Virus record (IMG/VR): IMGVR_UViG_3300046656_000113 | Coordinates: 1 to 40,472 of that record | Length of the DNA stretch: 40,472 nt | Strand: one strand, 5' to 3' | DNA from: a virus | Part shown: positions 1 to 29,152 of the stretch, piece after piece | Position numbering within the stretch: position 1 is the first letter of the stretch | Layout of the letters: every line of letters begins with the position of its first letter | Made by a program: the position numbers and the translations under genes | The notes under the pieces: generated by a model | Databases searched by the model: none | Told to the model about the DNA's origin: nothing | What the model saw: only the letters and a program-made list of their open reading frames with translations

Positions 1-131
1 ACCTCGCGATCTCGGAAAAATTAAAACCGGAAAACAAGATCGACGGCCCTGACGCGCTGATCACGGCGCTGAGTCGCGCGACGACGGCCGCGGAGGAAAA
101 ATATTTGTCGACTGAGGTTTACGCCGTCTGA
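1..131 (+). CDS. Terminase large subunit, C-terminal end (partial)
   Basis: The frame starting at base 3 is open from the window edge and encodes 42 residues ending in a TGA at 129-131. The stretch KIDGPDALITALSRA matches the usual end of phage terminase large subunits, where a conserved D-A-L-I/T motif closes the nuclease domain. The family packages DNA into proheads. The stop overlaps the portal start as TGATG, and the portal gene directly follows, as in HK97-type phages. The ATPase and catalytic parts lie outside the window, so the call rests on this tail plus context. Confidence 0.72.
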   Translation, partial: LAISEKLKPENKIDGPDALITALSRATTAAEEKYLSTEVYAV

Positions 132-1480
132 TGTTTCCAGAAATTCGGAAGGGATTGAGGGAATTTTTCGGGGACAACGGCGCGCCGATCTCCCTGAATC
201 TGAAAACGACGGGCAACGTCCTTAATTTTGCGAGCACGGTCGAGGAGCAATATCTCCGGAAGTTCCCCACGATCTACGAGATTGTCGCCGGCGGCGGGCC
301 GGCATGGTCGGGCGAAACGGTCAACATCGACACGGCGCTACAACATCCCGTCGTTTGGGCCTGCAATGCAGTCGTCGCCGGCACGATGGGAACGCTCCCG
401 GCTACGCTGAAGCAGGTTAAGAACGGGCAGATCCGCGACGCGATCGAACATCCGATGTATTCGGCGATGCAGGACGAGCCGAACGAGGAGTCGACGTCGC
501 AGTCGTTCCGCGAGCTCCTCACGACTCACGCCCTATTCACCGGGAACGGTTACGCGCAGGTCATCCGGCGGAGCGGCGGATCGGGAACGGCGATCCAACT
601 CCGGACGCTGCTCCCTGAAAACGTGAATCCGGCCAGGGATCGATCCGGGCGCCTGGTCTACGTCGTCAGCCAGGCCGGCAACTCCGACAAGGTCTATACG
701 GTCGAGCCGAACAAGGCGCACGACATCCTGCATATTCGCGGCGCCGGATGGGACGGGCTGAAGGGCTATCCCGTTATTCGCATGATGCGGCAGTCGGTCG
801 GGACGGCGATCGCGGCCGAGCGTAACGTCGCGGAGTTCTGGGCCAATGGCGGCCGGATCCCCTACCACCTCGAGACGACGGTCCCTTTTAAGGACGAAAA
901 CGACGCGAACCTGTTTCGCGCTAACTGGAACGAGAAATACGGGAAACCTCACGTCGTCCCGATCCTCCCGCCGGGAATTACCTACGAGCAGGACGGCCTG
1001 AACATGAAGGACGCCCAGGCGCTCGAGTTCCGACAGGACTCGACGGCTGTGATCTGTCGCTATTTCGACGTTCTGCCTCACCTGGTCGGCGACCTTTCGC
1101 GGGCGACGTTCAACAACATCGAACAACTCGCGCTGCAGTTCGAGAAGCTGACGCTCTCGAAATGGCTCACGCGCTGGAACAAAGAATTTCGACGCTGCGT
1201 CCTGACTCCTGAAGAAAAGGCCGCCCGCTATTACCTACACCACAACCTCGACGCGCTACGCCGCGGCGACTTTGTGGCTCGGATGACGGGCTACGCAACG
1301 GCACTGCAAAACGGCTGGCTGAATCGCGACGAGGTCCGCGAGCTCGAGGACCGCAACCCGATCCCGGACGGCGCCGGCGCGGATTACACGATCCAGCTAA
1401 ATATGCAGGGCCTACCACTCACAGACGCCGCCGATCTCGCGAAGCAACTACAGAAAAAACCGCCTACGGGAGGGAACTGA
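131..1480 (+). CDS. Phage portal protein, HK97 family
   Basis: This 449-residue protein should form the dodecameric ring at the unique capsid vertex through which DNA is packaged and to which the connector attaches. The length fits the HK97 gp3 family. Recognisable features are the N-terminal segment with VNIDTALQHPVVWACNAVVA, the LPATLK region, the GLKGYPVIRM segment, and a C-terminal half with RYFDVLPHLVGD followed by FNNIEQLALQF, which is the characteristic portal signature. The start codon overlaps the terminase stop (TGATG), suggesting translational coupling. The prohead protease follows after 2 bases. The family call is firm. Confidence 0.96.
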   Translation: MFPEIRKGLREFFGDNGAPISLNLKTTGNVLNFASTVEEQYLRKFPTIYEIVAGGGPAWSGETVNIDTALQHPVVWACNAVVAGTMGTLPATLKQVKNGQIRDAIEHPMYSAMQDEPNEESTSQSFRELLTTHALFTGNGYAQVIRRSGGSGTAIQLRTLLPENVNPARDRSGRLVYVVSQAGNSDKVYTVEPNKAHDILHIRGAGWDGLKGYPVIRMMRQSVGTAIAAERNVAEFWANGGRIPYHLETTVPFKDENDANLFRANWNEKYGKPHVVPILPPGITYEQDGLNMKDAQALEFRQDSTAVICRYFDVLPHLVGDLSRATFNNIEQLALQFEKLTLSKWLTRWNKEFRRCVLTPEEKAARYYLHHNLDALRRGDFVARMTGYATALQNGWLNRDEVRELEDRNPIPDGAGADYTIQLNMQGLPLTDAADLAKQLQKKPPTGGN

Positions 1481-1482
1481 TT

Positions 1483-2148
1483 ATGAAATTTCTACGATTC
1501 AAAACAGCCGGCGACGCTGACGGATATCTGTCGATCGAACTGAAGGCGGTCGGCGAGGCAGGCAAGTTTTCGGGAATCGCGTCGATCTACGGCGTCGAGG
1601 ACCTCGGCGGCGACATCGTCGACAAGGGCGCCTTTACCAAAACCGTCGCGGAGAATCCGCAGATTCCGATCCTCTGGATGCACGATCAGAAAGAAGTAAT
1701 CGGCGTCGGCCAGGTCAAGGAATGGCAGGGAAAACTGATGATCGACGCGAGCCTCGACATGGAGGACCCGGCCGCCCAGAAGGCGTTCCGCAAGATGAAG
1801 GCGGGCCTGATCAAGGGGCTCTCGATCGGCTATAAAACGATCAAATCGACGTATCAGACGGTCGAGGACAAGCTGATCCGACACATCCAGGAGCTAAAAC
1901 TTTACGAAGTTTCGGTCGTGACGTTCCCGATGTTACCGGCCGCCCAAGTTACCAGAACCAAGCAGCAGGAGGAGCGCGACGGCGAGGCCCTCCGACTCCT
2001 GCAGGAAACAAATTCGGCACTCCTCACGCGCGTCGAGGCACTCGAGGCGAAGGCGGAGCCGCCACTCACCAAAACCGAGCCGGTCGATGACCACTCGGCG
2101 GCAGCACTGGACGCGGCGAAAAAGATTCTCGACGCCCTCGGCCAGTAA
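1483..2148 (+). CDS. Prohead protease, HK97 family
   Basis: This 221-residue protein resembles the U35/HK97 gp4 prohead serine protease, which cleaves the scaffold (delta) domain of the major capsid protein during maturation. The sequence shows the family core: SGIASIYGVEDLGGDIVDKG near residues 29-48, the conserved ILWMHDQKEVIGVG segment containing the catalytic His (near residue 66), and a later KGLSIGYKTI segment (near 106-115) holding the catalytic Ser, followed by LYEVSVVTFPM. It sits between portal and major capsid genes in the standard order. The C-terminal 60 residues are charged and look like a flexible tail. Confidence 0.95.
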   Translation: MKFLRFKTAGDADGYLSIELKAVGEAGKFSGIASIYGVEDLGGDIVDKGAFTKTVAENPQIPILWMHDQKEVIGVGQVKEWQGKLMIDASLDMEDPAAQKAFRKMKAGLIKGLSIGYKTIKSTYQTVEDKLIRHIQELKLYEVSVVTFPMLPAAQVTRTKQQEERDGEALRLLQETNSALLTRVEALEAKAEPPLTKTEPVDDHSAAALDAAKKILDALGQ

Positions 2149-2184: not shown

Positions 2185-3585
2185 ATGGACAGACGTACCC
2201 AGAAGTATGATCGAAAGCGATGGTTTGCCGTGCACTGCTGCAGGCAGACCGTCAACGCGCCCCCGATGGCGCAGCCGAGCCTCGAGATGGGCCTCGGCCT
2301 TGTAATGGCGAGCCTGCTCGCCGTCCTCGCGATTGGCGCGATGGTTCATTTCATGGGGACCACGGCAACGGCCGGGACCATTCTCGCGAGCGCGCCGATC
2401 GCGGCGATCCCTGTCGAGCTTAAGACCGCCCTCGACGGGATCCTGGCTAAGATGAGCGAGGCGAAAACAATCGAGGACGCCGAGCGTAAGAAATTCGGCG
2501 AGACTCTGGCCTCGACCCAGGAAACGATCGTCAGCCTGCAGCGGCAACTCGACGCGATCGACGTCAAGATCACCGAGCAGCGCGCGAACGAACCCCAGGT
2601 TAAGTCGCTCGAGGAGGAGTTCAAAGAAAACGCCGGCCTTCAGCAACTGCTCACGACCAAAACGGGATCGGCGAAAATCGTAATCGCCGGCAAACATTTC
2701 CTGAACTGGCTCGAGCGTAAAACCACGATCGATCGCGCGGCCCTGGGCTTCCCGACCGTGGCGGTTCTCCAGAGCGATCGCACTCCTGGGATCATCCAGG
2801 AGGCGCGCCAGATCCTGACCGTCCGAAACGTATTGGCCTCGCGGCCGACGTCGCTCGGCATGGTTGACTTCGTGAAGATCAACTCCGCGCAGGCTGCGGC
2901 GTCGATGCAAACGGAATCTTCGGCGAAGGTCGAGAATGCGATCACGTTCACCACTGGCTCGCAGAAGGTGGAGACTATAGCGTCGATTATCCCCGCCTCA
3001 CGTCAAGCCCTAGAGGACATGGCCGAGCTGATGGCTGCGATCGACAGCGGTCTCAGCTATGCCGTGAACGAGCGCGAGGAAAAAGAGCTCCTCTTCGGGA
3101 ACGGCAACTCGCCCGACCTGAACGGGATCTATACCCAAGCGACGGCGTTCAATACGGCGCTGCTCTCCCTGACGCCCGGCTGGACGAAGTCCGATCAGAT
3201 CTCGGTCGCAATCCAGCAGATCGCGATCGCGAAGGAAATCCCGCCCACGTTCGTCGTGCTCCATCCGACGGACTATTGGCAGATCCTCCGCACGAAGGAC
3301 GCGAACCGGAACTATCTGTTCGGGAATAATGGCATGGTCGATCCCTTCTGGGGTCTGACTCCCATTCCTACCGTTCACATGAGCTCTGGCGAATTCCTCG
3401 TCGGTTCCGGCTCTCCTGTCGCGGCAGAAATCCGCGATCGCATGGCGCTCGAGGTCGTGGTTTCCACGGAACACAGCGACTGGTTCGCCAAGAACTTGAT
3501 CGCGATCCGCGGTGAAAAACGCCTGGCGCTCGCGGTCTACAGGGCTGGATCGTTCATCAAAGGCACGTTCAACACCAGCCCCTAA
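2185..3585 (+). CDS. Major capsid protein, HK97 fold, with an unusual hydrophobic N-terminal extension
   Basis: This 466-residue protein follows the protease and fits an HK97-type major capsid protein. Residues about 80-150 are charged and heptad-like, as expected for the delta/scaffold domain, and the rest carries the capsid fold (for example LGMVDFVKINSAQAA, IIPASRQALEDM, FVVLHPTDYWQILRT). The start at 2185 has a strong AGGAGG ribosome site 8 bases upstream. Oddly, residues 33-57 form a membrane-like hydrophobic stretch in front of the usual start region near VELKTALDG. This extension would probably be removed with the delta domain. Internal ATG codons at 2266 and 2287 are alternatives but lack an equally good ribosome site. 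Confidence 0.93.
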   Translation: MDRRTQKYDRKRWFAVHCCRQTVNAPPMAQPSLEMGLGLVMASLLAVLAIGAMVHFMGTTATAGTILASAPIAAIPVELKTALDGILAKMSEAKTIEDAERKKFGETLASTQETIVSLQRQLDAIDVKITEQRANEPQVKSLEEEFKENAGLQQLLTTKTGSAKIVIAGKHFLNWLERKTTIDRAALGFPTVAVLQSDRTPGIIQEARQILTVRNVLASRPTSLGMVDFVKINSAQAAASMQTESSAKVENAITFTTGSQKVETIASIIPASRQALEDMAELMAAIDSGLSYAVNEREEKELLFGNGNSPDLNGIYTQATAFNTALLSLTPGWTKSDQISVAIQQIAIAKEIPPTFVVLHPTDYWQILRTKDANRNYLFGNNGMVDPFWGLTPIPTVHMSSGEFLVGSGSPVAAEIRDRMALEVVVSTEHSDWFAKNLIAIRGEKRLALAVYRAGSFIKGTFNTSP

Positions 3586-3676: not shown

Positions 3677-5650
3677 ATGCCCAACCAAAAGATACCCCGA
3701 CCAGATTCAATGAACAAGACAGCATCGCAATTCAATCTATGGCTCTTTCAGCAGAGCGCGAAAGACAAGGTTCTCTCTGAACTGAAGTCCGGCAACGCGA
3801 CGCTGCTTGTCTCTCCGACAGGATCAGGAAAGACCGTCATGGCCTCGGAGATTGCGAAGCACTTCACTCGCGTGCTCTTCGTCGCACACCGGCAGGAAAT
3901 CATCGATCAGGCTCGGGCTTCGATGGGGCCAAATGTCACGGCGGTCGGCATTCAGAGCGTGATGCGACACGGCCCTAATGGAACGGACCTTCTCATCATT
4001 GACGAGGCCCACCGATCCGCAGCGAAAACATACCGCGAACTCATAGAGCGGTATCCCGAAGCGGCTCGACTCGGACTGACAGCAACTCCGCTCCGCACCG
4101 ACGGCAAGGGCCTGTCCGGAGCGTTCTCCGTTTTGGTCGAGGCTGCGAATACTCGCGATCTGATCTCGCTAGGACGCCTCGTTCCCTATCGGTCATTCGA
4201 AGCGCCAGACGAATTGTTGCGGCAGCTTGCGACGACGCGGAAGCGCGCGGGAGATTACGATCAGGCCGAACTTTCAAAATTGATGAATCGGCCTCGACTT
4301 GTGGGCGACGTTGTTCGTGAGTACAAAAAGAATGCGACCGGCAGGAAATCAATCGCTTTCGCTGTGAGCGTCGAGCATTCAATCGCGATGACGCAGGCGT
4401 TCAACGAAGCGGGCGTCCGAGCCGCACACCTTGACGGCAGGGCCAGCGATAAATTGCGCAGAGAGGCGCTGGCGGCACTCAGGAGCGGTAAGATCGATGT
4501 TCTATCCAACGTGAATCTCTTCACGGAAGGATGGGACTGTCCTGAAGTTTCCTGCGTGATCGTCGCACGGCCAACGATGTCCTTGACGCTGCATCTCCAG
4601 TCGATAGGCCGCGGGATGCGCGCATGCGAAGGCAAGAACGATCTCATCATTCTCGACCATGCCGGGAACATTGAACGGCATGGTCTCCCGGATGCGCCGC
4701 GCGTTTGGTCTCTCGAAAGCGATGCGGAAAGGGCCACGCGCGAAGCCGAAGTCGCCGAACTGGAACGATTGCACGCGCTGGGATTCGATTCGATCGAGGC
4801 GGAGCTGGAAGAGAAGCAGAGAATTCAATCCACCACATATTTGGCCGGTGAAGTTTCGGGAATAGTTCGGCGCATCACAGGGAAGAGTGGCGCGAATTCG
4901 TTCTTAAAATTCTGGGGAGTGGCTCCGATTTCAGGGGCTGCCAGCTTAGTTCGGTATCTGCGAAGCGATGTCGATGCCGTGATCGAGACCTACAATTCTT
5001 CCTACTCGACAAAGCAGGCATGCTTAAAACTTGGAGTAACAAGGGCGAAGCTGCGGGCGATTTACGCAGACAGGGGGATCTCTCCAGTTCGCAGACCTGG
5101 CAAGTATCGAGGCAGCGACTGTTTATTCCCGAAACTGGAAATCGATGGCATTGCTGCCGACCTCGATCGATTTATTGGACTTTCTGAGGCGTCGAAATTG
5201 CTCGGGCTCAGTAGAGACATGACGATCCGCCTTATAAGTCTCAGGGGTGTTTCCAGGGGAGATTCCCGCAGTAATCGACATGGGTACAGCCGGGCGGAGG
5301 TCGATCAAATTGCACGAGAGCGAGACCGGCAAGGATGGATCTCAATCTCAGAGGCAGCCGCGACTCTTGGATCGTCACGCGACAAAGTCAGTGTCGCTCT
5401 TATCAGGCTAGGCATTGCACCAAAACGATTTGGGCGGAGAAAGTGCTATCTCGTGACAGACATCGAACGCCTGAAGAGAATGATTGACGATTCCTGCTTG
5501 TCGCGTGATGTGAGAGCGTCACTGGATCTTTCAAAATCGGAATTTCACGCACTACTCCGGGAGCATCGCATAAGGCCGTTATTCGGATCTGGGGCAGCTA
5601 CGCGCTACAGCAAATCAGACGTTGATCTAATCGCTCGATCGAGATCGTAA
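3677..5650 (+). CDS. SF2 DEAD/DEAH-type helicase with tandem winged-helix DNA-binding modules
   Basis: This 657-residue protein has a complete superfamily 2 helicase core: Walker A SPTGSGKT (46-53), DEAH (109-112), TATPLRTD (135-142), and motif VI QSIGRGMR (308-315). The core resembles UvrB/type III restriction helicase subunits and should couple ATP hydrolysis to DNA strand movement. The C-terminal 240 residues are not part of that family core. They contain four or five MerR/excisionase-like helix-turn-helix units, each ending in a Y..(S/T)(D/E)(V/I)D-type wing (about 412-438, 440-500, 500-550, 554-605, 610-657). No nuclease or methylase partner is adjacent. It sits between capsid and glycosylation genes and looks less G+C-rich than its neighbours, suggesting acquisition. 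The start at 3677 has AGGA 12 bases upstream; Met12 is an alternative. Confidence 0.9.
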   Translation: MPNQKIPRPDSMNKTASQFNLWLFQQSAKDKVLSELKSGNATLLVSPTGSGKTVMASEIAKHFTRVLFVAHRQEIIDQARASMGPNVTAVGIQSVMRHGPNGTDLLIIDEAHRSAAKTYRELIERYPEAARLGLTATPLRTDGKGLSGAFSVLVEAANTRDLISLGRLVPYRSFEAPDELLRQLATTRKRAGDYDQAELSKLMNRPRLVGDVVREYKKNATGRKSIAFAVSVEHSIAMTQAFNEAGVRAAHLDGRASDKLRREALAALRSGKIDVLSNVNLFTEGWDCPEVSCVIVARPTMSLTLHLQSIGRGMRACEGKNDLIILDHAGNIERHGLPDAPRVWSLESDAERATREAEVAELERLHALGFDSIEAELEEKQRIQSTTYLAGEVSGIVRRITGKSGANSFLKFWGVAPISGAASLVRYLRSDVDAVIETYNSSYSTKQACLKLGVTRAKLRAIYADRGISPVRRPGKYRGSDCLFPKLEIDGIAADLDRFIGLSEASKLLGLSRDMTIRLISLRGVSRGDSRSNRHGYSRAEVDQIARERDRQGWISISEAAATLGSSRDKVSVALIRLGIAPKRFGRRKCYLVTDIERLKRMIDDSCLSRDVRASLDLSKSEFHALLREHRIRPLFGSGAATRYSKSDVDLIARSRS

Positions 5651-5665
5651 GCAAGACAAGCAAAC

Positions 5666-7111
5666 ATGAAAATCCTCTGTGACGGCCCTTTGGTCGTGGA
5701 CGGCGAGCTATACCCAAAAGGGGCAGTGCTGACCGTCGAGAAGTCCGTCGGAGAGCGATGGATCAGCCGGGGAGTCGCGCGCCATGCGCTCCCGCCCGAC
5801 ATACTTCATGAAACAAACTCACGAGAACAAGATGCTGCTCTTAGAGAACAAGGGGTCACCTGCCTCTGTCTCACGCGCAACCGTCGGGAATGGCTCCCGA
5901 AGGCAATCGCAAGCTATCTCGCGCAAAGCTACGGGATCCGCGAGCTCCTCATCGTCGCCGATGGCGAGGACATCCGGGACCTCGTCCCCGATCGTCCGGA
6001 TATCCGGCTAATCCATGTGGAAGAGGGCCGAACGATCGGCGACAAGCGAAACTTTGGCGTCAGCCAGGCGCGCGGCAAATATGTTGCCCATTGGGACGAC
6101 GATGACTGGTCAGCGCCTGATCGCTTACTTGAACAGGGCCTCCGACTCCGACTATCAGGACTCGCCGTCACCGGATATCACCAATTTGATTTCAACAACC
6201 GCGGGCAATGGTGGCGCTACCAAGGCGATGAAGGCTACGGTCCGGGCTCGACGCTCCTCTACGAGCGCGACTGGGCTCTCCGTCATCCGTTCCCGGCGCT
6301 CCAGATTGGCGAGGATGGCAGATTTTGCGAGACCGCGCGGGAGTTCAAGCAAATCGTGACCTCTCCCTCCTGCGGCATGCTGACCGCGTCGATTCATATC
6401 AGCAACACGAGCCCGCGGAATCTCGGGAACGAGGTCTGGACACGCCTGGAACGATCGGGATCGGGCCTGACCGTCATTATCCCGAGCAGAAAACTCTCTA
6501 ACGTCGGACCCTGCGTCGAGGCCGTTCGCCGGCTGAATCCGGAGGTCCGGATCGTCGTCGTCGACGACGGCGTCGAGAATGTCGGGTCTCTCGGCGTCGA
6601 CGTCATTCCGGGAATAAATCCTTTTATCTTCGCGCGCAACATGAACGCCGGGATCCGATTCGCCGGACTCGACGACGTCCTCCTCCTGAACGACGACGCG
6701 ATCCTCGAGACGCCCCGCGGATTCTCCCTCCTGCAGGAATGCGCGCGAAATTATCCCGAGTTCGGCGTGATCGCCGCGACGACGAACGCCGTCGGAAACC
6801 GGAATCAACTCCCGATGGGCGCCGGCCTCCGCGAGGACCCTCGGATGGTTTGCTTTGTCGCGGCCCTCATCCCGCGGGCGACGCTCGAGAAAATCGGCTA
6901 CCTCGACGAGCGGTTTAACGCTTACGGATTCGAGGACGACGACTTTTGTTATCGCGTTCGCCGGGCGGGGCTGAAAATCGGGATCCTCGACGATTGTTTC
7001 GTCGATCACGCCTCCCTCGAGAGCACGTTCCGCGGCGAGGCCCTGGCCGGCGGAAACCTGGAAGGCGGCCGGCGAATCTTCGAGGACAAATGGGGCGCCT
7101 ATCCCTTATGA
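5666..7111 (+). CDS. Two-domain glycosyltransferase (GT2 + GT2) with a small N-terminal phage domain
   Basis: This 481-residue protein appears to be three parts. Residues 1-45 resemble a short phage domain with a GELYPKGAVLTV and ISRGVARH pattern. Residues about 64-250 form a first GT-A fold of family 2 with CLCLTRNR at the start and a DDDD metal/nucleotide-binding motif at 144-147. Residues about 265-475 form a second GT2-like domain with IIPSRK, VVVDDG (298-303), LLLNDDA (340-345) and the acceptor-side GFEDDDFCYR (421-430). It should transfer sugars from nucleotide donors. It leads a coupled carbohydrate gene run and overlaps the next start (ATGA). The substrate is unknown. Confidence 0.93.
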   Translation: MKILCDGPLVVDGELYPKGAVLTVEKSVGERWISRGVARHALPPDILHETNSREQDAALREQGVTCLCLTRNRREWLPKAIASYLAQSYGIRELLIVADGEDIRDLVPDRPDIRLIHVEEGRTIGDKRNFGVSQARGKYVAHWDDDDWSAPDRLLEQGLRLRLSGLAVTGYHQFDFNNRGQWWRYQGDEGYGPGSTLLYERDWALRHPFPALQIGEDGRFCETAREFKQIVTSPSCGMLTASIHISNTSPRNLGNEVWTRLERSGSGLTVIIPSRKLSNVGPCVEAVRRLNPEVRIVVVDDGVENVGSLGVDVIPGINPFIFARNMNAGIRFAGLDDVLLLNDDAILETPRGFSLLQECARNYPEFGVIAATTNAVGNRNQLPMGAGLREDPRMVCFVAALIPRATLEKIGYLDERFNAYGFEDDDFCYRVRRAGLKIGILDDCFVDHASLESTFRGEALAGGNLEGGRRIFEDKWGAYPL

Positions 7112-7638
7112 AGCTATTCCTATCGCCCCACAATGACGACGCGGCGCTGTTCGGGTCGTTTACGATCCTGCGGGAACGGCCTCTGGTCGTAACGGTCCTC
7201 GACTCTCACAAGCAATGCACCAACGGCGGCCCGACGATGGTTCAGCGGCGACGCGAGGACGAGGCCGCGATGATCGTCCTCGGCGGCGCGCCGATCATGT
7301 TCTGGGGCGCCTCTGACGCCTCGGCAAACTGGCCCGATATCGAGGCGCAGTTCCGATCCTTCTTCGGTCAGCCGGAAATGGTTTACGCGCCGGCATACGA
7401 GGCCGAGGGGCACGCCGACCACAACGCTCTCGGGACTCTCGCCGGCCGGGTCTTTAAGAACGTCACGTACTACATGACGTACACGCGGAACGGGAAATCG
7501 ACGGGCGTTCCGGTCAATTACGAGCCCGGATGGGCGGTCAAGAAGCTCCAGGCGCTCGCCTGTTACGAGTCGCAGATTCGACAGCGGAATCAGGTCGAGC
7601 ACTTTCTAAGGGAGCAAGGCGAGTATTACCGTGCTTAA
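7108..7638 (+). CDS. PIG-L/LmbE-type deacetylase
   Basis: This 176-residue protein has the signatures of PIG-L-family zinc deacetylases, which remove acetyl groups from N-acetylglucosamine-type sugars or conjugates: LSPHNDDA at 5-12 (usual form HPDDE), RRREDE near 47-52, and EAEGHADHNALG with the H-x-D-H zinc site (102-105). The Asn in PHNDD, replacing Pro of the usual motif, is a variation, but the metal-binding His and Asp residues are kept. The ATG at 7108 overlaps the previous stop as ATGA; the open frame extends further upstream but lies inside the glycosyltransferase gene. It probably edits a sugar used by the neighbouring transferases. Confidence 0.88.
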   Translation: MKLFLSPHNDDAALFGSFTILRERPLVVTVLDSHKQCTNGGPTMVQRRREDEAAMIVLGGAPIMFWGASDASANWPDIEAQFRSFFGQPEMVYAPAYEAEGHADHNALGTLAGRVFKNVTYYMTYTRNGKSTGVPVNYEPGWAVKKLQALACYESQIRQRNQVEHFLREQGEYYRA

Positions 7639-8413
7639 AAAAGTTCTGATTCAGACACAGTTCGGCTCGCCGCATCCCTGGACGGCCGAGTACCTCGAGC
7701 ACTTCGAGAGGCTCGCGGATACCGGATGGATCCTGAAAGTTTTCACGCCGAACAACCTCCGGGCCGGCCGAAACGTCGAGATTATTCCGATGACGGTCGA
7801 GGAGTTCGACGTCCTGGTCGAGCTCAACTGCGGAGTTAAGGTCGGAAATCACCTGAAAAACGGCGTTCCGTCGAAACTGATCAGCGATTTCTATCCGGCG
7901 CACGGCGCCATCTTTGCGGATTTCCTGAAGGACGCGGATTTCTGGGCGATCAGTAATTGGGATTGCGTTTACGGCCGGCTGTCGCACTTCGTCCCCGACT
8001 CGCTGCTCGAGGAAATCGACGTCTACGCTGATGAGGGCTGCGTCGCGTTTAACGGGATTTTTACCCTAATGCGGAATGTCTGCCGGGTCAACGACCTCTA
8101 TCGACAGGTTCCGGACTGGGAATCGAGCTTCACGAGGCATGAGCCGACGGCGTTCGACGAGGTCCAGTTCACGCACACCCTGCGGGACGCTGTGGTCCGC
8201 GACGAGATCCTGTTCGGGCATCCTTCAAACTTCGGCCAACACAGTTACGACCGCCTTATTCAGCATCAGCCGCGGCCGAATCTCTACTTCGAGGACGACG
8301 GCGCCCTGATCGAACGCTATGAGGATCGAACGCATTTTCCGGCGCGCGTCGGATGGCATGGTCGCGAAATTCCCCTGTTTCATTTCAGCAGGACGAAGGC
8401 CTGGCCGCTATGA
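7631..8413 (+). CDS. Glycosyltransferase-like protein (DUF6625-like)
   Basis: This 260-residue protein starts with GTG and overlaps the deacetylase by 8 bases. Its middle segment, with FWAISNWDCVYGRLSHF followed by IDVYADEG, resembles the DUF6625/GT-A-like family, in which a W-x-x-x-D-x-D/V-x-G-R pattern surrounds the nucleotide-sugar site; here the pattern reads SNWDCVYGR. The DUF6625 assignment is from memory of the motif, not a search. Its position between a deacetylase and an epimerase-like gene supports a role in building a glycan. The exact activity is unknown. Confidence 0.8.
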   Translation: MLKKVLIQTQFGSPHPWTAEYLEHFERLADTGWILKVFTPNNLRAGRNVEIIPMTVEEFDVLVELNCGVKVGNHLKNGVPSKLISDFYPAHGAIFADFLKDADFWAISNWDCVYGRLSHFVPDSLLEEIDVYADEGCVAFNGIFTLMRNVCRVNDLYRQVPDWESSFTRHEPTAFDEVQFTHTLRDAVVRDEILFGHPSNFGQHSYDRLIQHQPRPNLYFEDDGALIERYEDRTHFPARVGWHGREIPLFHFSRTKAWPL

Positions 8414-9162
8414 GAGACCGCGAAGTTTGCATAATTGGCCGTCACGGGCTGATCGGCGCCGCCCTGGCGAAACACTTCGGCGACGTCACGCCGTTCCCGG
8501 TCGCGGAAACCCGGATCCTATTCCATTTCGGCTCGTATGTTCACCCGACCTTTGAGCAGAACCCGACCTATCTGATGCAGAGGGAGCTCGAGGAGTTCGC
8601 GAGGCTCCTGCCGTATTGCTACGAGCGCGGGATTCAGTTCGTTTACCCCTCGAGCGCGCTGGTCTACGAGCGGGAAACTCAGTTCTCCAGGTTCAAAAAA
8701 ACACTCGAGCAAATGGCCGGCTGTTTCGACACCCGGACGCTCGGCCTCCGGATTTTCCCGGTATACGGTCCCGGCGAGGACCGGACCGTGATCTCGAAAT
8801 GGGCGCGCCAGATGGCCCGCGGCGAGGCGCCTGTCGTTTATGGCGACGGCGAGCAGTCTCGAGCCTTTATCTATATCGACGACGTCGTCGATCAAATCCT
8901 GACGCTCGTCGAGCGATGCGCGCACCGGTCCGGCGTTCACGATGTCGGCTCGGACACTCGGATCGTCTTTAACGACATCGTCGGCGAGATAAACAGGCAA
9001 CTCGGGACCGAGATCAAGCCGCGATACGTCAATCGGCCCTCGAGTTATTCGGAGGGCTTCGTTTGTCCGAATCCCTTGCCGGTAAAAGTCCCCCTCAACG
9101 TCGGAATCAGAAACATTTTGAAGGCGCTGGAATGCTCAAACCTCGAACTGTCACGGCAGTAA
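8410..9162 (+). CDS. NAD-dependent epimerase/dehydratase-like protein (extended SDR), catalytic Tyr replaced
   Basis: This 250-residue protein has a Rossmann-type N-terminus with CIIGRHGLIGAALA (glycines at 10, 13, 16), the VYPSSALVY strand (78-86), and a C-terminal half with YIDDVVDQI and a substrate-binding-like IFPVYGPGE. It belongs with nucleotide-sugar epimerases and dehydratases. At the place of the Y-x-x-x-K catalytic pair the sequence reads F92-S-R-F-K96, followed by the expected E100, so the general acid/base tyrosine seems absent. Activity may be altered or lost. The ATG at 8410 overlaps the previous stop as ATGA. Confidence 0.88.
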   Translation: MRDREVCIIGRHGLIGAALAKHFGDVTPFPVAETRILFHFGSYVHPTFEQNPTYLMQRELEEFARLLPYCYERGIQFVYPSSALVYERETQFSRFKKTLEQMAGCFDTRTLGLRIFPVYGPGEDRTVISKWARQMARGEAPVVYGDGEQSRAFIYIDDVVDQILTLVERCAHRSGVHDVGSDTRIVFNDIVGEINRQLGTEIKPRYVNRPSSYSEGFVCPNPLPVKVPLNVGIRNILKALECSNLELSRQ

Positions 9163-9689
9163 TCCCGACCCGCGGCGACGTCAGCCTCGGCGCGCTGACG
9201 GATCACCTGCGCTCGTATCCCGAGATCGGCGAGATCCGTTTCGTCATCGGCGACACGCCGTTTAATAGATATCGGGCGATGCTCGAGGAGTCGGGCTCGG
9301 AGATTTTCCTCACACAGGACGACGACTGCGTAACGGACCTCCGCCCGCTGCTCGATGCCTACGACCGCGCGGTCATCGTCAACGCAATGACTCGCGAGCA
9401 TGCGGCGCAGTACCAAGGGAACCAAACGCTGATCGGATTCGGGGCGCTGTTTCATCGAGACCTAGTCAGTTATGCGTTCTACGGATGGAACTGGCAGCGC
9501 GACGACCTGTTTTATCGCGAGTCCGATCGGATTTTCCCGACCGTCATTCCGCATAAGACGGTTTTCCCTCAGATCAGTATTTTGCCGCATGCGAGCGCGC
9601 CGAATCGCCTCTGGAAGCAACCGGACCACAACTCAGCGCGCCTCGAAATGAATAGGCGAATTTTCGACATGACAGGGATCCCGGCATGA
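9132..9689 (+). CDS. Glycosyltransferase, GT2-like
   Basis: This 185-residue protein starts VTAVIPTRGDVSLG near its N-terminus and has LTQDDDCVTD near residues 67-76. Together these are the opening strand and D-x-D-like motif of a small GT-A glycosyltransferase. It is shorter than most family members, so it may lack part of the acceptor domain. The start at 9132 overlaps the end of the epimerase-like gene by 31 bases and is preceded by GAAGG. The next gene begins in its stop codon region (ATGA). The nucleotide-sugar donor cannot be inferred. Confidence 0.85.
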   Translation: MLKPRTVTAVIPTRGDVSLGALTDHLRSYPEIGEIRFVIGDTPFNRYRAMLEESGSEIFLTQDDDCVTDLRPLLDAYDRAVIVNAMTREHAAQYQGNQTLIGFGALFHRDLVSYAFYGWNWQRDDLFYRESDRIFPTVIPHKTVFPQISILPHASAPNRLWKQPDHNSARLEMNRRIFDMTGIPA

Positions 9690-10384
9690 TCGACCTAATC
9701 CACCTGTCGCACAACCGCCTGGAGTTCACGAAGGCGAGCCTCGCGGCGCTCGAGGCGAATACCAACTGGGCAAAGGTCGGTCGGCTGATCCTCTACGACG
9801 ACAACTCACAGGACGGGACTCGCGAATTCCTCGAGGCGTGGGCGCGCGAAACCCTGATCGGGACCGATGTCGAATTACGTTTCGGGACTTTCGGGCACCC
9901 GGTAAACGTGATGCTCGATTTCCTCAGAAACCTCCAACGCCATAGCATTTTCGGAAAAATCGATTCCGACACGATGGTCCCGCCGGCGTGGCTCGATCAA
10001 TGCCTCGACGTGATGGATCGGCGCCCCGAGCTCGACCTGCTCGGAATCGAGGCGATGAATCCCGTCGACGACTGTCCGCAGAAACGGAGCTACACCGACG
10101 CGCGATTTATCGGCGGGATCGGCCTCATGAGGGCCGCGGTATTTTTCCAGAATCCCGGCCTCGGGCCGAGCGGTCGCTATTTCGGCTTTACGGAATGGCA
10201 GGAGCGAAACCCAATCGTTAAAAAGGGTTGGTTGAATCCATCGCTCCCTGTTTTCCTCCTCGACCGAGTCCCCCTCGAGCCCTGGCGATCGCTCTCGAAA
10301 GAGTACACGGAACGATTCGGACAGCGCGACTGGGGTCCCTACGACATGAACATGGCCGCAATGTGGGAATGGTGGCGCCGATGA
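9686..10384 (+). CDS. Glycosyltransferase, family 2
   Basis: This 232-residue protein has a compact GT-A layout: IDLIHLSHNRLEFTKASL at the start, LILYDDNSQDGTREFL near residues 34-49 (the typical V-D-D-x-S-x-D-x-T motif), and FGKIDSDTMVP near 90-100 holding the D-x-D metal site. These are direct family 2 signatures. It starts at an ATGA junction with the previous gene and ends in an ATGA junction with the next. The acceptor is probably a phage or host surface glycan, by context only. Confidence 0.92.
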   Translation: MIDLIHLSHNRLEFTKASLAALEANTNWAKVGRLILYDDNSQDGTREFLEAWARETLIGTDVELRFGTFGHPVNVMLDFLRNLQRHSIFGKIDSDTMVPPAWLDQCLDVMDRRPELDLLGIEAMNPVDDCPQKRSYTDARFIGGIGLMRAAVFFQNPGLGPSGRYFGFTEWQERNPIVKKGWLNPSLPVFLLDRVPLEPWRSLSKEYTERFGQRDWGPYDMNMAAMWEWWRR

Positions 10385-10746
10385 TCAACAGCGGTCTCAA
10401 CTTGGGACAGGTCATCACGCTCCTCTCGAAACGTCCAGGGGATCACCTGTGCGCCTTTGACTTCGGTGGGACCCGACCCGCGGGCGTCGGCTCCTATCGC
10501 GGGTTCTATGAGGACCTCGCTATCGGCTTCGAGGAAGACAACTCAGCCACCGTCGCCGAGGTTCTGGCAACGCTGAAGGCCGCGATCGGAGAAACCTTCC
10601 ACGGATGGAAGGGCGGCGAATATCGGATGAAAGAAAGCAGCACGGTCTGGGTCGCGAACCGCGGCAACACGTCCGACACCTTCATCAAAGGGCTTCGGGA
10701 CTGCGATTACATGACCATCATCGAAACGGACTGGGAGGCATCGTGA
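10381..10746 (+). CDS. Conserved-type phage protein of unknown function
   Basis: This 121-residue protein contains DFGGTRPAGVGSYRGFYEDL followed later by FHGWKGGEYRMKESSTVWVA. I associate this combination with a small domain found in many phages, but I know of no established function. It has no visible membrane segment or catalytic motif. It is embedded in the carbohydrate run, overlapping both neighbours by 4 bases (ATGA upstream, GTGA downstream). It may be co-expressed with the cluster without being an enzyme. Confidence 0.82.
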   Translation: MINSGLNLGQVITLLSKRPGDHLCAFDFGGTRPAGVGSYRGFYEDLAIGFEEDNSATVAEVLATLKAAIGETFHGWKGGEYRMKESSTVWVANRGNTSDTFIKGLRDCDYMTIIETDWEAS

Positions 10747-11453
10747 ACATCGTCGGAATGATGCGGATCAAGAACGAGGGGCGGTGGATCGAGCGGGTCC
10801 TGCGGTCCATGATGGCCGTCTGCGAGCGGATCTACATCCTCGACGATCACTCGACCGACGAGACGGTCGCGATCTGCCGGCGCTTTTCTCAGGTAACTCT
10901 CTGGAATTCCGAGTTCGAGGGCGTTCAGGAAACGCGGGATAAAAACTGGCTCCTGTCGAAAATCGAGGAGCGAGTCCCGGCCGGGACCTGGATTATCGCG
11001 ATCGACGGCGACGAGGAGATCGCGCCAGGCGGCGCCGAGGTCATCCGATGGATCGCGGAAAACCCGCATTCGCCGGACGCGGTCCGATTCCATGTTCAAT
11101 ATCTCTGGGACTCCGAGACGCAATGGAGGACCGACGGGATCTATCTCGATTTTCACCGGCCTTCTATGTTTCGGCTCGTCCCCCTGCAGAGGTTTTTCTC
11201 CGCGGCCGGCGGCGGTTTTCACTGCGGGAATGTTCCCGACGGCGGCGGCGCCCCGCGGGCCGAGGTCCGCCTCCTGCATTACGGCTACCTCCACCGGGAG
11301 GATCGGATCCGGAAGTTCGAATGGTACAACGCCGCCGACAAGCAACCGATACCGGAGCTCGAGGACGGATATCGACACATGGTCATCGGCGACCTTTTCC
11401 CGGCTGACTCCGAGTTTCGACACGGCGGGCCGCTACAAATGAGGTCGCTATGA
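10743..11453 (+). CDS. Glycosyltransferase, family 2
   Basis: This 236-residue protein opens with NIVGMMRIKNEGRWIERVL, then YILDDHSTDETVAI (about 31-44) and WIIAIDGDEEIAP (about 82-94). This is the classic arrangement of GT2 transferases of the waaE/KdtX-like type: acceptor Asn-Glu, nucleotide-binding D-D-x-S-x-D, and the D-G-D-E metal site. The GTG start at 10743 overlaps the preceding stop as GTGA; the frame is open further upstream but only inside the neighbouring gene. It closes the carbohydrate run and overlaps the head-tail connector start by 4 bases, tying the cluster to late gene translation. Confidence 0.93.
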   Translation: MNIVGMMRIKNEGRWIERVLRSMMAVCERIYILDDHSTDETVAICRRFSQVTLWNSEFEGVQETRDKNWLLSKIEERVPAGTWIIAIDGDEEIAPGGAEVIRWIAENPHSPDAVRFHVQYLWDSETQWRTDGIYLDFHRPSMFRLVPLQRFFSAAGGGFHCGNVPDGGGAPRAEVRLLHYGYLHREDRIRKFEWYNAADKQPIPELEDGYRHMVIGDLFPADSEFRHGGPLQMRSL

Positions 11454-12049
11454 GTCTGAACGCGAACGCGATCGTATCGCTCGCCGAGGGGAAGGCGTTC
11501 CTCGAGGAAAACGGCAACGCGAAGGACACGCTAATCGAGAGGCTAATCAATTCGATCTCGACCCAGATCGAGGCCGCGGTCGCGAGAAAAGTCGCGCAGC
11601 AAACACTGACCGCCTATCGGATGGACGGCAACGGATCGACCTCGATGAGGTTTCCGCATACGCCTCTGAAATCGATCTCCTCGCTGGTCTCGAAAAGCCC
11701 TGTCGACGACACGACGCTGACGACGTTTACCAGTTTCTCGATCATCAATCCAAATACCGGAAACGTCCTGCTGACCGCGGGAGAGGTTTTCCCATGCGGC
11801 CGGGACAATATCGTCGCGACGATGTCGGTCGGATATGCAACGTCGCCGGCGGAGGATAACGACCTCTCGACGTTCAAGCTCGCGACGCTCATGCAACTGA
11901 AAAACAATTTCAAGCGATACGAGTCCCAGGAGATCGGCCTGCTCGGGCATTCAATGCCGAATGGCGCCGTGACACTCGCGCCGCCTCGAGGGCTCCTGCT
12001 CGAGGTCCTCGAGATGATTCGGCCGTTTACGGCGCAGAGGCTCGCCTGA
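11450..12049 (+). CDS. Head-tail connector protein, gp6-like
   Basis: This 199-residue protein has the start expected of head-tail adaptors: SLAEGKAFLEENGNAKDTLI, then a helical segment IERLINSISTQIEAAVARK and later HTPLKSIS. HK97 gp6/YqbG-like proteins bind below the portal and receive the tail. The C-terminal helix with LATLMQLKNNFKRYE also fits. It resumes the canonical structural order after the accessory block and overlaps the next gene as TGATG. Confidence 0.88.
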   Translation: MSLNANAIVSLAEGKAFLEENGNAKDTLIERLINSISTQIEAAVARKVAQQTLTAYRMDGNGSTSMRFPHTPLKSISSLVSKSPVDDTTLTTFTSFSIINPNTGNVLLTAGEVFPCGRDNIVATMSVGYATSPAEDNDLSTFKLATLMQLKNNFKRYESQEIGLLGHSMPNGAVTLAPPRGLLLEVLEMIRPFTAQRLA

Positions 12050-27430: not shown

Positions 27431-29152
27431 TCACGCCAGCACCGCCTCGCAGAGAGCCCGAGCCATCGACCCGTCCACCGCGTTCCCGATCTGCTTCACG
27501 ATCGCCTCACGGTTGCCAGTGAACTGGTACGTGTCCGGGAAGGACATCGCACGGGCCAGCTCGCTGGGTTTCAGCATCCGGAAGTGGATATCGAGCGCGA
27601 CCTGGGTACCGTCTTCCAAGTGCCGGACCAGCGGAGTCACGAGGCCGAATCGATCCTTTGCCGTGACCGTGTCCAGCGGCTCGCTTACCGGCCTGCACTG
27701 ACCGGTCCCGTAATATTTCGCGATCAGCGGTTCAACGATTCCCGTCGCATCGACGCTGGTTATTGTGGGCAGCGGATGCTCAACGGAGTGCGTTCGCGTG
27801 TCGTTCTTGCCGTGATTGACGGGCATGATGAACGGCTGAACCAGGGCATGCTCGCCGCCCTTCGCGGTCGTTATTGTCGAAAGCGGCGACTCGGTCGAAC
27901 GTACCGGCGCGGTCTTTGCCTTGGTGTGAGTCACCTTGGTTACGAATGGCTGCGCGAGTCCCATGCCGCGGCTCGTCGTTGTGATCGCTCCTACGGGCTC
28001 ATCAACGGACTTCGGATTGGCGTCGCTGAACTGCGGAACGATGAAAGCTTTCGGCTCGACGATTCCCATGTCGCTGCCGCCCTTTGCGGTTATCGTCCGC
28101 AGCGGCCGCTCGATGGAATCAACACAGGCTTCGTCAAACTGCCGGTGTCCGAGAATGAATGGCTTCGGCTCAACCAGACCGTACATATTCCCCGTGTGGA
28201 GCGTTCCGATCGGCTCATCGACAGAGTAGTTTCGTTTCTCGCTGTCCGAGCCTCCATGGAACGCGGCAAGGAACGGCTGCGCGACGCCAACATGGTTTCC
28301 GCCAGCCGTCAGAGTTGGCAGTGGTTTCTCGATCGAACTCGCGTCCGCGTGGTTCCGGAGGATGACGAGGAACGGCTCCAGCTCCTTCCCTCCAAACTTC
28401 TCAAGGCCAGCGATGATCCGCGCCATGGTTGCCGGGGCGAGTGCGCGCTTCCGCCCGAAGATGCTCCGGCTCGGCGTCTGCCATTCGATGACTTCCCGCG
28501 CGGCCCGCCACTTCTTCGTCTTCCCGAACAGCGTCTTGCCGCCGAGCTTCGAGTGCGAGGGATTCGGCCAGTTGACAGCTTTCTTCCCGCGGCGCGCCTG
28601 GATGAACAGCCGCTCGCGTGTCGTCGCGGCACCATAGTCCGCGGCGTTCAGGACCTTCCACTCCACGCGGTACCCGAGAGACTTCAAGGATTGAATGAAG
28701 GCGCGGAACGTCTCGCCCTTCTTCGATTTCATCGGCCGGCCGTTGACGCCCACAGGACACCAGTCGCGAAACTCCTTCACGTTCTCAATGAGGATCGTGT
28801 CGATATAGAGGAGCTCGGCCCAGCGCAGAATCAGCCAGGCGGAGGCTCGACCCTGATCGGTGACGGGCTTTCCGCCACGGGCTACGCTGAAGAATGTGCA
28901 CTCCGGAGACGCCCACAGCAGATCGAGGCGTCCGCCAGGGACGGCGATTCGCGGATCCACCGTATCGACGGAAGCGCACGCATGCTGCGCATCCGGATGG
29001 TTGGCCGTGTGCGTGGCGATCGCGACGTCCCAGTGGTTGACCGCGAAAAGGTCCAGCCCGTAGCCCATGCCATCGCATGCCATCTGGAGGCCCGTTGACG
29101 TTCCGCCGGCGCCGCAAAACAAATCAGCCGCTCTGACCAGTCGCTTCTTCAT
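27431..29152 (-). CDS. DNA (cytosine-5-)-methyltransferase with seven internal repeats
   Basis: This 573-residue protein transfers a methyl group from S-adenosylmethionine to cytosine C5. Motif I is DLFCGAGGTS (10-19), the catalytic Cys motif reads SPECT (82-86), motif VI is ENV (123-125), and motif VIII is RERLFI (179-184). Motif IX-like LKPSELARAMSFPD and X-like IGNAVDGSMARAL close the protein. Between VIII and IX, residues about 273-515 contain seven tandem units of about 36 residues, each with a S(V/I)(D/E)xP(L/V)xT(I/L)T start and a G(L/I)V(E/Q)P(F/K) end. This replaces the usual target-recognition region. No cognate restriction enzyme was seen, so self-protection against host restriction or regulation is likely. 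Confidence 0.95.
   Translation of the reverse strand: MKKRLVRAADLFCGAGGTSTGLQMACDGMGYGLDLFAVNHWDVAIATHTANHPDAQHACASVDTVDPRIAVPGGRLDLLWASPECTFFSVARGGKPVTDQGRASAWLILRWAELLYIDTILIENVKEFRDWCPVGVNGRPMKSKKGETFRAFIQSLKSLGYRVEWKVLNAADYGAATTRERLFIQARRGKKAVNWPNPSHSKLGGKTLFGKTKKWRAAREVIEWQTPSRSIFGRKRALAPATMARIIAGLEKFGGKELEPFLVILRNHADASSIEKPLPTLTAGGNHVGVAQPFLAAFHGGSDSEKRNYSVDEPIGTLHTGNMYGLVEPKPFILGHRQFDEACVDSIERPLRTITAKGGSDMGIVEPKAFIVPQFSDANPKSVDEPVGAITTTSRGMGLAQPFVTKVTHTKAKTAPVRSTESPLSTITTAKGGEHALVQPFIMPVNHGKNDTRTHSVEHPLPTITSVDATGIVEPLIAKYYGTGQCRPVSEPLDTVTAKDRFGLVTPLVRHLEDGTQVALDIHFRMLKPSELARAMSFPDTYQFTGNREAIVKQIGNAVDGSMARALCEAVLA

Follow-up and report, generated by a model that had tools for sequence, protein, structure and literature searches.

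A glycosyltransferase fused to a lambda FI-like domain in the head operon of uncultured phages points to probable capsid glycosylation

The window analyzed here is a 40,472-base virus record from IMG/VR (IMGVR_UViG_3300046656_000113), and our subject is a block of sugar-modifying genes (5666-11453) that lies within its head operon. All genes of this operon are on the + strand, in the order portal, protease, HK97-type major capsid protein (MCP), helicase, sugar block and connector. The first gene of the block encodes GTa (5666..7111), a protein of 481 amino acids with two glycosyltransferase (GT) domains of family GT2 (PF00535, E 5e-21). The original prediction, made from the sequence of the window alone, described this gene as a GT2-GT2 fusion. 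The Pfam matches agree with that description, but it missed residues 1-45 of the protein (5666..5800), which are not a GT. They form a DUF7210/lambda gpFI-like domain that would probably serve in docking to the capsid.

The identity of this FI-like domain follows from comparisons with related phages, whose loci are designated below by L numbers. Phages that have related MCPs but no GT encode, directly 3' of the MCP, a small protein with the same pattern as the N-terminus of GTa. Such proteins are annotated as 'DNA-packaging protein FI' in Mesorhizobium phage P1 and as 'phage lambda FI protein' in PseuP_224. Several of these stand-alone proteins match DUF7210 (PF23843); the Pfam match of the window's GTa to this family is weak (E 0.18). 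A profile of the fused domains (A1) aligned in hhalign with a profile of the stand-alone post-MCP proteins from GT-less phages (A2) at a probability of 97.2% (E 3e-11); the score was 49.5, compared with a maximum of 13.7 across 100 column-shuffled controls. The fused domain also aligned with the stand-alone FI-like proteins of GT-bearing phages (98.8%, E 1e-16). The 27 C-terminal residues of lambda gpFI itself align in register with the domain, with an hhalign score of 25.9 versus at most 15.3 in 200 shuffles and a probability of 68-78%.

The FI-like domain is joined to a GT in the window and in 19 other loci, and the fusion occurs in two diverged MCP groups, that of the window and that of L040-L069. 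Among the GT-bearing relatives in which the two are not fused, a stand-alone FI-like open reading frame (ORF) fills the gap behind the MCP gene in 22 of 24 cases, with E below 1e-4 for 21. The 25th gap in this test is the window's own, where the FI-like domain is fused further on. The FI-like sequence thus lies directly 3' of the MCP gene in the relatives, while in the window the helicase gene intervenes. Like the domain in GTa, lambda gpFI and the DUF7210 proteins are encoded between MCP and connector, and the 45-residue domain resembles this family in profile comparisons. The domain in GTa differs from lambda gpFI in that it is fused to a bifunctional GT and lacks the N-terminal helical part. 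A description of an FI-GT fusion, or of GTs following the MCP, was not found in the literature searched, which comprised openly accessible papers.

An AlphaFold2 model of GTa is confident (pLDDT 90.5 overall and 92-94 for residues 1-40 of the FI-like domain). In it, a small beta-beta-beta-beta-alpha-beta domain is followed by a disordered linker (residues 43-51) and two GT-A domains. The nearest structure found with Foldseek is the chondroitin polymerase of E. coli K4 (2z86, E 3e-16). GTa shares two consecutive GT-A domains with this enzyme (K4CP) and with other bifunctional GT2 polymerases, namely Pasteurella heparosan synthase 2 and Mimivirus R699. However, the identity is 10-16%, the FI-like domain is extra in GTa, and the likeness does not imply a polymer as product. 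The GT motifs DDDD and ED of GTa are invariant across 16 relatives. In locus L009 (9995-11469) GTa is present as two genes, one for FI-GT2 and one for GT2, and hence both fusion and fission occur within the GTa family.

All eight ORFs that were originally assigned to the block, seven of carbohydrate type and one small phage gene, are present. GTa is followed by a PIG-L-type deacetylase with a PHNDD motif (7108..7638; PF02585, E 2e-7, over the cut-off; homologues at 50% in L007 and L008), a DUF6625 protein (7631..8413; PF20330, E 2e-23; homologue at 54% in L007) and a short SDR or heptose-epimerase-like protein (8410..9162; PF01370, E 2e-20; TIGR02197, E 2e-23, below the cut-off). Next come gtB (9132..9689), a putative and unconfirmed GT-A protein with the motif TQDDDC and a 53% homologue in the L010 cassette; gtC (9686..10384), a GT2 (PF00535, E 1e-5) with homologues in L009-L011; the small phage protein (10381..10746; phrog_12889, E 7e-15); and gtD (10743..11453), a GT2 of type Glyco_tranf_2_4 (PF13704, E 4e-10), which precedes the connector gene in many related cassettes. 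Pfam supports the GT2, PIG-L and epimerase-like labels given earlier. Two other labels are unproven. 'Transferase' is a guess for the DUF6625 protein, a member of a family without an assigned function. For gtB, searches of Pfam, PHROG and NCBIfam found no family, and profile comparison with the GT2s of the block gave nothing significant, so that 'GT2-type' is unproven for it. In the SDR the catalytic Tyr of YxxxK is replaced by Phe (FSRFK) in the window, L007 and L009, which are all three of the phage homologues having that region; possibly, then, the protein is no ordinary epimerase. The sole NCBIfam match of gtD is to the SunS peptide S-glycosyltransferase family (E 9e-5, far below the cut-off), which hints weakly at a protein as acceptor. 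The cassette proteins look soluble, with a maximum KD19 of 1.29 and no transmembrane segment.

The genes are tightly packed, as had been predicted. Six junctions are 4-nucleotide (nt) overlaps, five of them ATGA (at 7108, 8410, 9686, 10381 and 11450) and one GTGA (at 10743); the others are overlaps of 8 nt at 7631 and 31 nt at 9132. The ATGA at 11450 joins the last gene, gtD, to the gene of the head-tail connector (11450..12049; phrog_442, E 1e-13), which indicates translational coupling of the run to the connector. At 0.600, the block has the same GC content as the head genes (0.599) and hence shows no compositional trace of a recent import. The occurrence of homologues in the same order in other contigs indicates that the block is not a product of chance. 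Upstream of it are the genes for the portal protein (131..1480; homologues in about 40 related loci), the prohead protease (1483..2148; homologues upstream of the MCP in related loci) and the MCP (2185..3585; TIGR01554, E 8e-29, residues 83-462). The block therefore lies between capsid and connector genes, as described earlier, but not directly beside the capsid gene, since a gene for a RadD/ResIII-type helicase of 657 amino acids with helix-turn-helix repeats (3677..5650; PF04851, E 3e-22; NF053632, E 2e-31) parts the two. No helicase gene occurs at this spot in the relatives. Its GC content is 0.552 compared with about 0.60 in its neighbours, and its C-terminal repeats are of the HTH_17/excisionase type.

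The original prediction proposed to look for the same insertion point in related phages. With GTa as the sole query and gene position disregarded, a scan of IMG/VR yielded 70 loci, most of them contig fragments with mechanically called ORFs. The loci that reach far enough mostly have the order portal-protease-MCP-GT. An MCP gene lies upstream of the GT in 45 loci. Of these, 35 have at most 500 nt between the MCP stop codon and the start of the GT, and 42 have at most 1 kb; the gap is longer in three (L034, L038 and L063), where connector-type genes lie between. The usual layout is MCP-[FI]-GTa-...-gtD-connector, with a minimal form MCP-FI-GT-connector in L026 and L027. The cargo in the middle differs among the relatives and includes a DegT aminotransferase, an RmlD-methyltransferase fusion, FkbM and other methyltransferases, and a TOD1-like GT. 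The GT family spans MCPs down to about 30-40% identity. Among about 50,000 records of named phages there were just two matches to GTa, both weak, and the layout was not found in these phages. Scans of viral contigs with single MCP and DUF6625 sequences gave no matches, the patterns being too specific.

A scan of GTDB genomes detected 80 loci. Among the five best, four (L089-L091 and L093) carry a terminase, portal and protease of the same kind, and L089-L091 also carry an MCP. All four are in Acidobacteriota, including Acidobacteriaceae bacterium KBS 96, whose prophage (L090) has the order MCP-FI-GT. It had been stated at the outset that homologues in a lipopolysaccharide (LPS) locus of a host genome would speak against a role in the virion. 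For the close relatives this is not the case, since four of the five top matches are prophages with the layout described above. The other 76 loci hold more distant GT2s, mostly 29-41% identical, without head genes of such type nearby. In 396 genomes of Acidobacteriota we found one clear MCP-GT prophage, that of KBS 96, and a portal fragment near a GT (L170); the remaining GT matches had no head genes in the stretches of about 3.6 kb examined. Since L089-L091 fall inside the same clade of the MCP tree as the window, the window phage, too, may have a host among the Acidobacteriota.

The MCPs with a GT nearby have a common C-terminus, ...G[ST]F.[TN]SP(A..), which in the window reads ...GTFNTSP. 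Two further scans with MCPs yielded 160 loci, and tails were counted after clustering at 80%. The Ser-Pro (SP) tail is present in 40 of 44 GT-bearing MCPs and in 3 of 29 GT-less ones (Fisher p 1.8e-12, a value that is overstated since the tailed MCPs are one clade). One of the three GT-less exceptions (L244) has a different motif, and the other two (L195 and L198) are rearranged contigs. In these two the SP-tailed MCP is followed by the protease gene, the reverse of the usual order, and no GT was seen. We consider the SP tail a conserved trait of the clade and a candidate acceptor, no more. The MCP of the window also carries an extra segment at its N-terminus. The ORF has about 76 extra residues (2185-2412) before the HK97 delta domain, comprising YDRKRWF..HC... 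and then the hydrophobic GLGLVMASLLAVLAIGAMV (KD19 2.37), and a strong ribosome site (AGGAGGAG). L005, L007, L008 and L202 have in-frame homologues of the extension (40-60%). A membrane-anchored capsid precursor, if this is one, would be unusual.

Precedents for virion glycosylation come from mycobacteriophages. It was described for Corndog, Che8 and Myrna by Freeman et al. 2023, as related in PMC12363180 and PMC12619734. The glycans decorate the C-terminal ends of capsid and tail-tube subunits (PMC12619734), and Corndog gp38 and Che8 gp110 are reported to be essential for capsid glycosylation (PMC12363180). In Corndog an O-methyltransferase and three GTs are encoded between portal and protease (PMC4351075). 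The window phage resembles these phages in encoding its own GTs (the two GT2 domains of GTa, gtC and gtD), and like the window, Corndog has its GT/methyltransferase block inside the head operon. These precedents make virion glycosylation plausible for the window phage. The systems differ in several respects: the Corndog block lies between portal and protease and not after the MCP, and it has a smaller sugar repertoire. Homology to the validated mycobacteriophage virion GTs (Corndog gp36-38 type) was looked for and not found. With Catdawg, a Corndog relative used for this comparison, the best BLASTP E value for gp34-36 was 0.05 and hhalign probabilities were at most 10%; the post-MCP protein of Catdawg has no FI-like match. 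Two named phages with a related MCP, Pseudomonas phage Psp6 and Tetraselmis viridis virus S20, have sugar- or modification-type genes (methyltransferase, GT-D, and MptE-like at E 0.16 only) between the MCP/FI-like gene and the connector or just after the connector. They have no GTa homologue, and their FI-like gene is separate.

Taken together, we favor the interpretation that the cassette builds a short glycan for the phage's own capsid, and possibly for other virion proteins, in the cytoplasm during late assembly; we regard this as probable. Work by Popovic in 2012 reportedly found that the C-terminal domain of lambda gpFI binds the major head protein, and for this reason GTa is probably docked on the capsid through its FI-like domain. 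PMC4493119 has gpFI acting on proheads and supports the head binding in part. According to this model the FI-like domain would bring GTa onto assembling or assembled capsids, where it would add the first sugar or sugars. gtC, gtD and possibly gtB would then lengthen the chain, while sugars would be deacetylated by the PIG-L protein and otherwise altered by the SDR. As acceptor site the MCP C-terminus with its conserved SP tail is the most likely candidate, and the whole cassette would act in the cytosol and be expressed late. As a tentative extension, an FI packaging chaperone may have turned into a GT, recruiting GTa at the packaging stage so that glycosylation is tied to assembly, with the SP tail as a dedicated acceptor.

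Several points weigh against capsid glycosylation by a docked GTa. Gene content and order, coupling and recurrence, the identity of the domains and the intact GT motifs are established by the analysis, and docking, acceptor and glycan are inferred from them. The alignment with lambda FI is short (27 columns) and comes from a single sequence. Profile A1 had no significant sequence match in the PDB, and the 62-residue model of the FI-like domain had no Foldseek match in the PDB at E≤0.001. Its weak matches are to small folds, among them the N-domain of ribosomal protein L9 and, at rank 22 with E 0.85, YqbF (2hjq), which is one of the proteins likened to gpFI. In the window the helicase interrupts the MCP-GT adjacency, so that the cassette of this phage is without direct contact to the capsid gene. 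The SP-tailed MCPs form one clade (44 rows, 42 tailed, SH-aLRT 99); the link between tail and GT thus reflects few events and is no independent proof. GT-bearing phages outside this clade (L019, L034, L038 and L063) lack the tail. Finally, we found no MCP-specific co-evolution. In rank correlations, the divergence of GTa follows that of the portal (rho 0.90) more closely than that of the MCP (0.67), and the partial correlation of GTa and MCP given the portal is -0.13. GTa is therefore inherited with the head module, with no extra coupling to the MCP.

It is also conceivable that FI stayed a mere packaging chaperone which happens to be joined to a GT. In this scenario genome compaction brought the two together, and the GT acts free in the cytosol on a virion protein or some other protein. 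We consider this rather unlikely, although it fares best among the alternatives and overlaps in part with capsid glycosylation, from which the docking step would drop out. An FI-like protein is ordinary at the same locus of GT-less phages, and FI-like protein and GT are separate genes in many relatives. On the other hand, the fusion is found in two diverged MCP groups, and the two genes are adjacent in nearly all other relatives.

Modification of envelope sugars of the host (LPS or exopolysaccharide) during infection or lysogeny, with an incidental location among the head genes, is unlikely. Envelope loci typically encode GT2, PIG-L and heptose-epimerase-like enzymes, distant GT2 relatives are abundant in bacterial genomes, and GtrB-like proteins occur in viruses of Acidobacteriota (PMC11924767). 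This contrasts with the constant position of the block after MCP/FI and before the connector, with the FI fusion and with the coupling to the connector. Furthermore, the cassette has no transmembrane segments, and no flippase or GtrA was detected in 21 records (PF04138; the control was positive in 7 of 14). The original preference for the virion over host LPS as the target is thus the better supported, by the FI link, the post-MCP position and the lack of GtrA and transmembrane segments, with the glycan itself deduced from the genes.

The original prediction also named LamG/repeat-bearing tail proteins beside the capsid as targets. A glycan on the tail alone, whether on the tail tube or on these proteins, appears a little more doubtful still. 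In L034 and L063 the GT block follows the head-completion genes and lies just ahead of the tail-tube gene, and the tail tubes of mycobacteriophages are glycosylated as well (PMC12619734). Yet in most relatives the block adjoins MCP and FI, and the FI family is linked to the head; this favors the capsid, and no finding points to the LamG tail proteins.

Hypermodification of DNA, in which the GTs would glycosylate modified bases, is very improbable: the window does encode a C5-cytosine methyltransferase (27431-29152; PF00145, E 3e-35) and virus GTs that hypermodify DNA are known (Pyle 2024, as cited in PMC12619734), but the GT is placed in the head operon away from DNA genes, a thymidylate-synthase-like protein (PF00303) is absent from 26 records with a positive control, Tet/JBP (PF12851) was not detected in 21 records with a Tet control that was itself silent, and a C5-methyltransferase occurs in 6 of 26 GT-bearing records, many of which are fragments. 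The methyltransferase of the window (- strand, 573 amino acids) has a long insert between its two catalytic parts, which gives split domain matches; a similar split match is present in the L019 record.

So far, virion glycosylation is established in a small number of actinobacterial phages. What is new here, as judged from sequence comparison, is an FI-like domain fused to a head-operon GT that is non-homologous to the virion GTs of mycobacteriophages. This GT family carries a built-in clue to its target, the FI-like domain, together with a candidate acceptor, the Ser-Pro tail of the MCP, and the fusion provides a concrete model of how a phage GT could find its substrate. GT2 genes in soil viromes that are counted as auxiliary metabolic genes for carbon utilization (e.g., PMC11924767) may include capsid-decorating enzymes, if they belong to the GTa family. 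Should an FI chaperone indeed have been turned into a GT, part of the GT2 'auxiliary metabolism' of soil phages would be capsid decoration.

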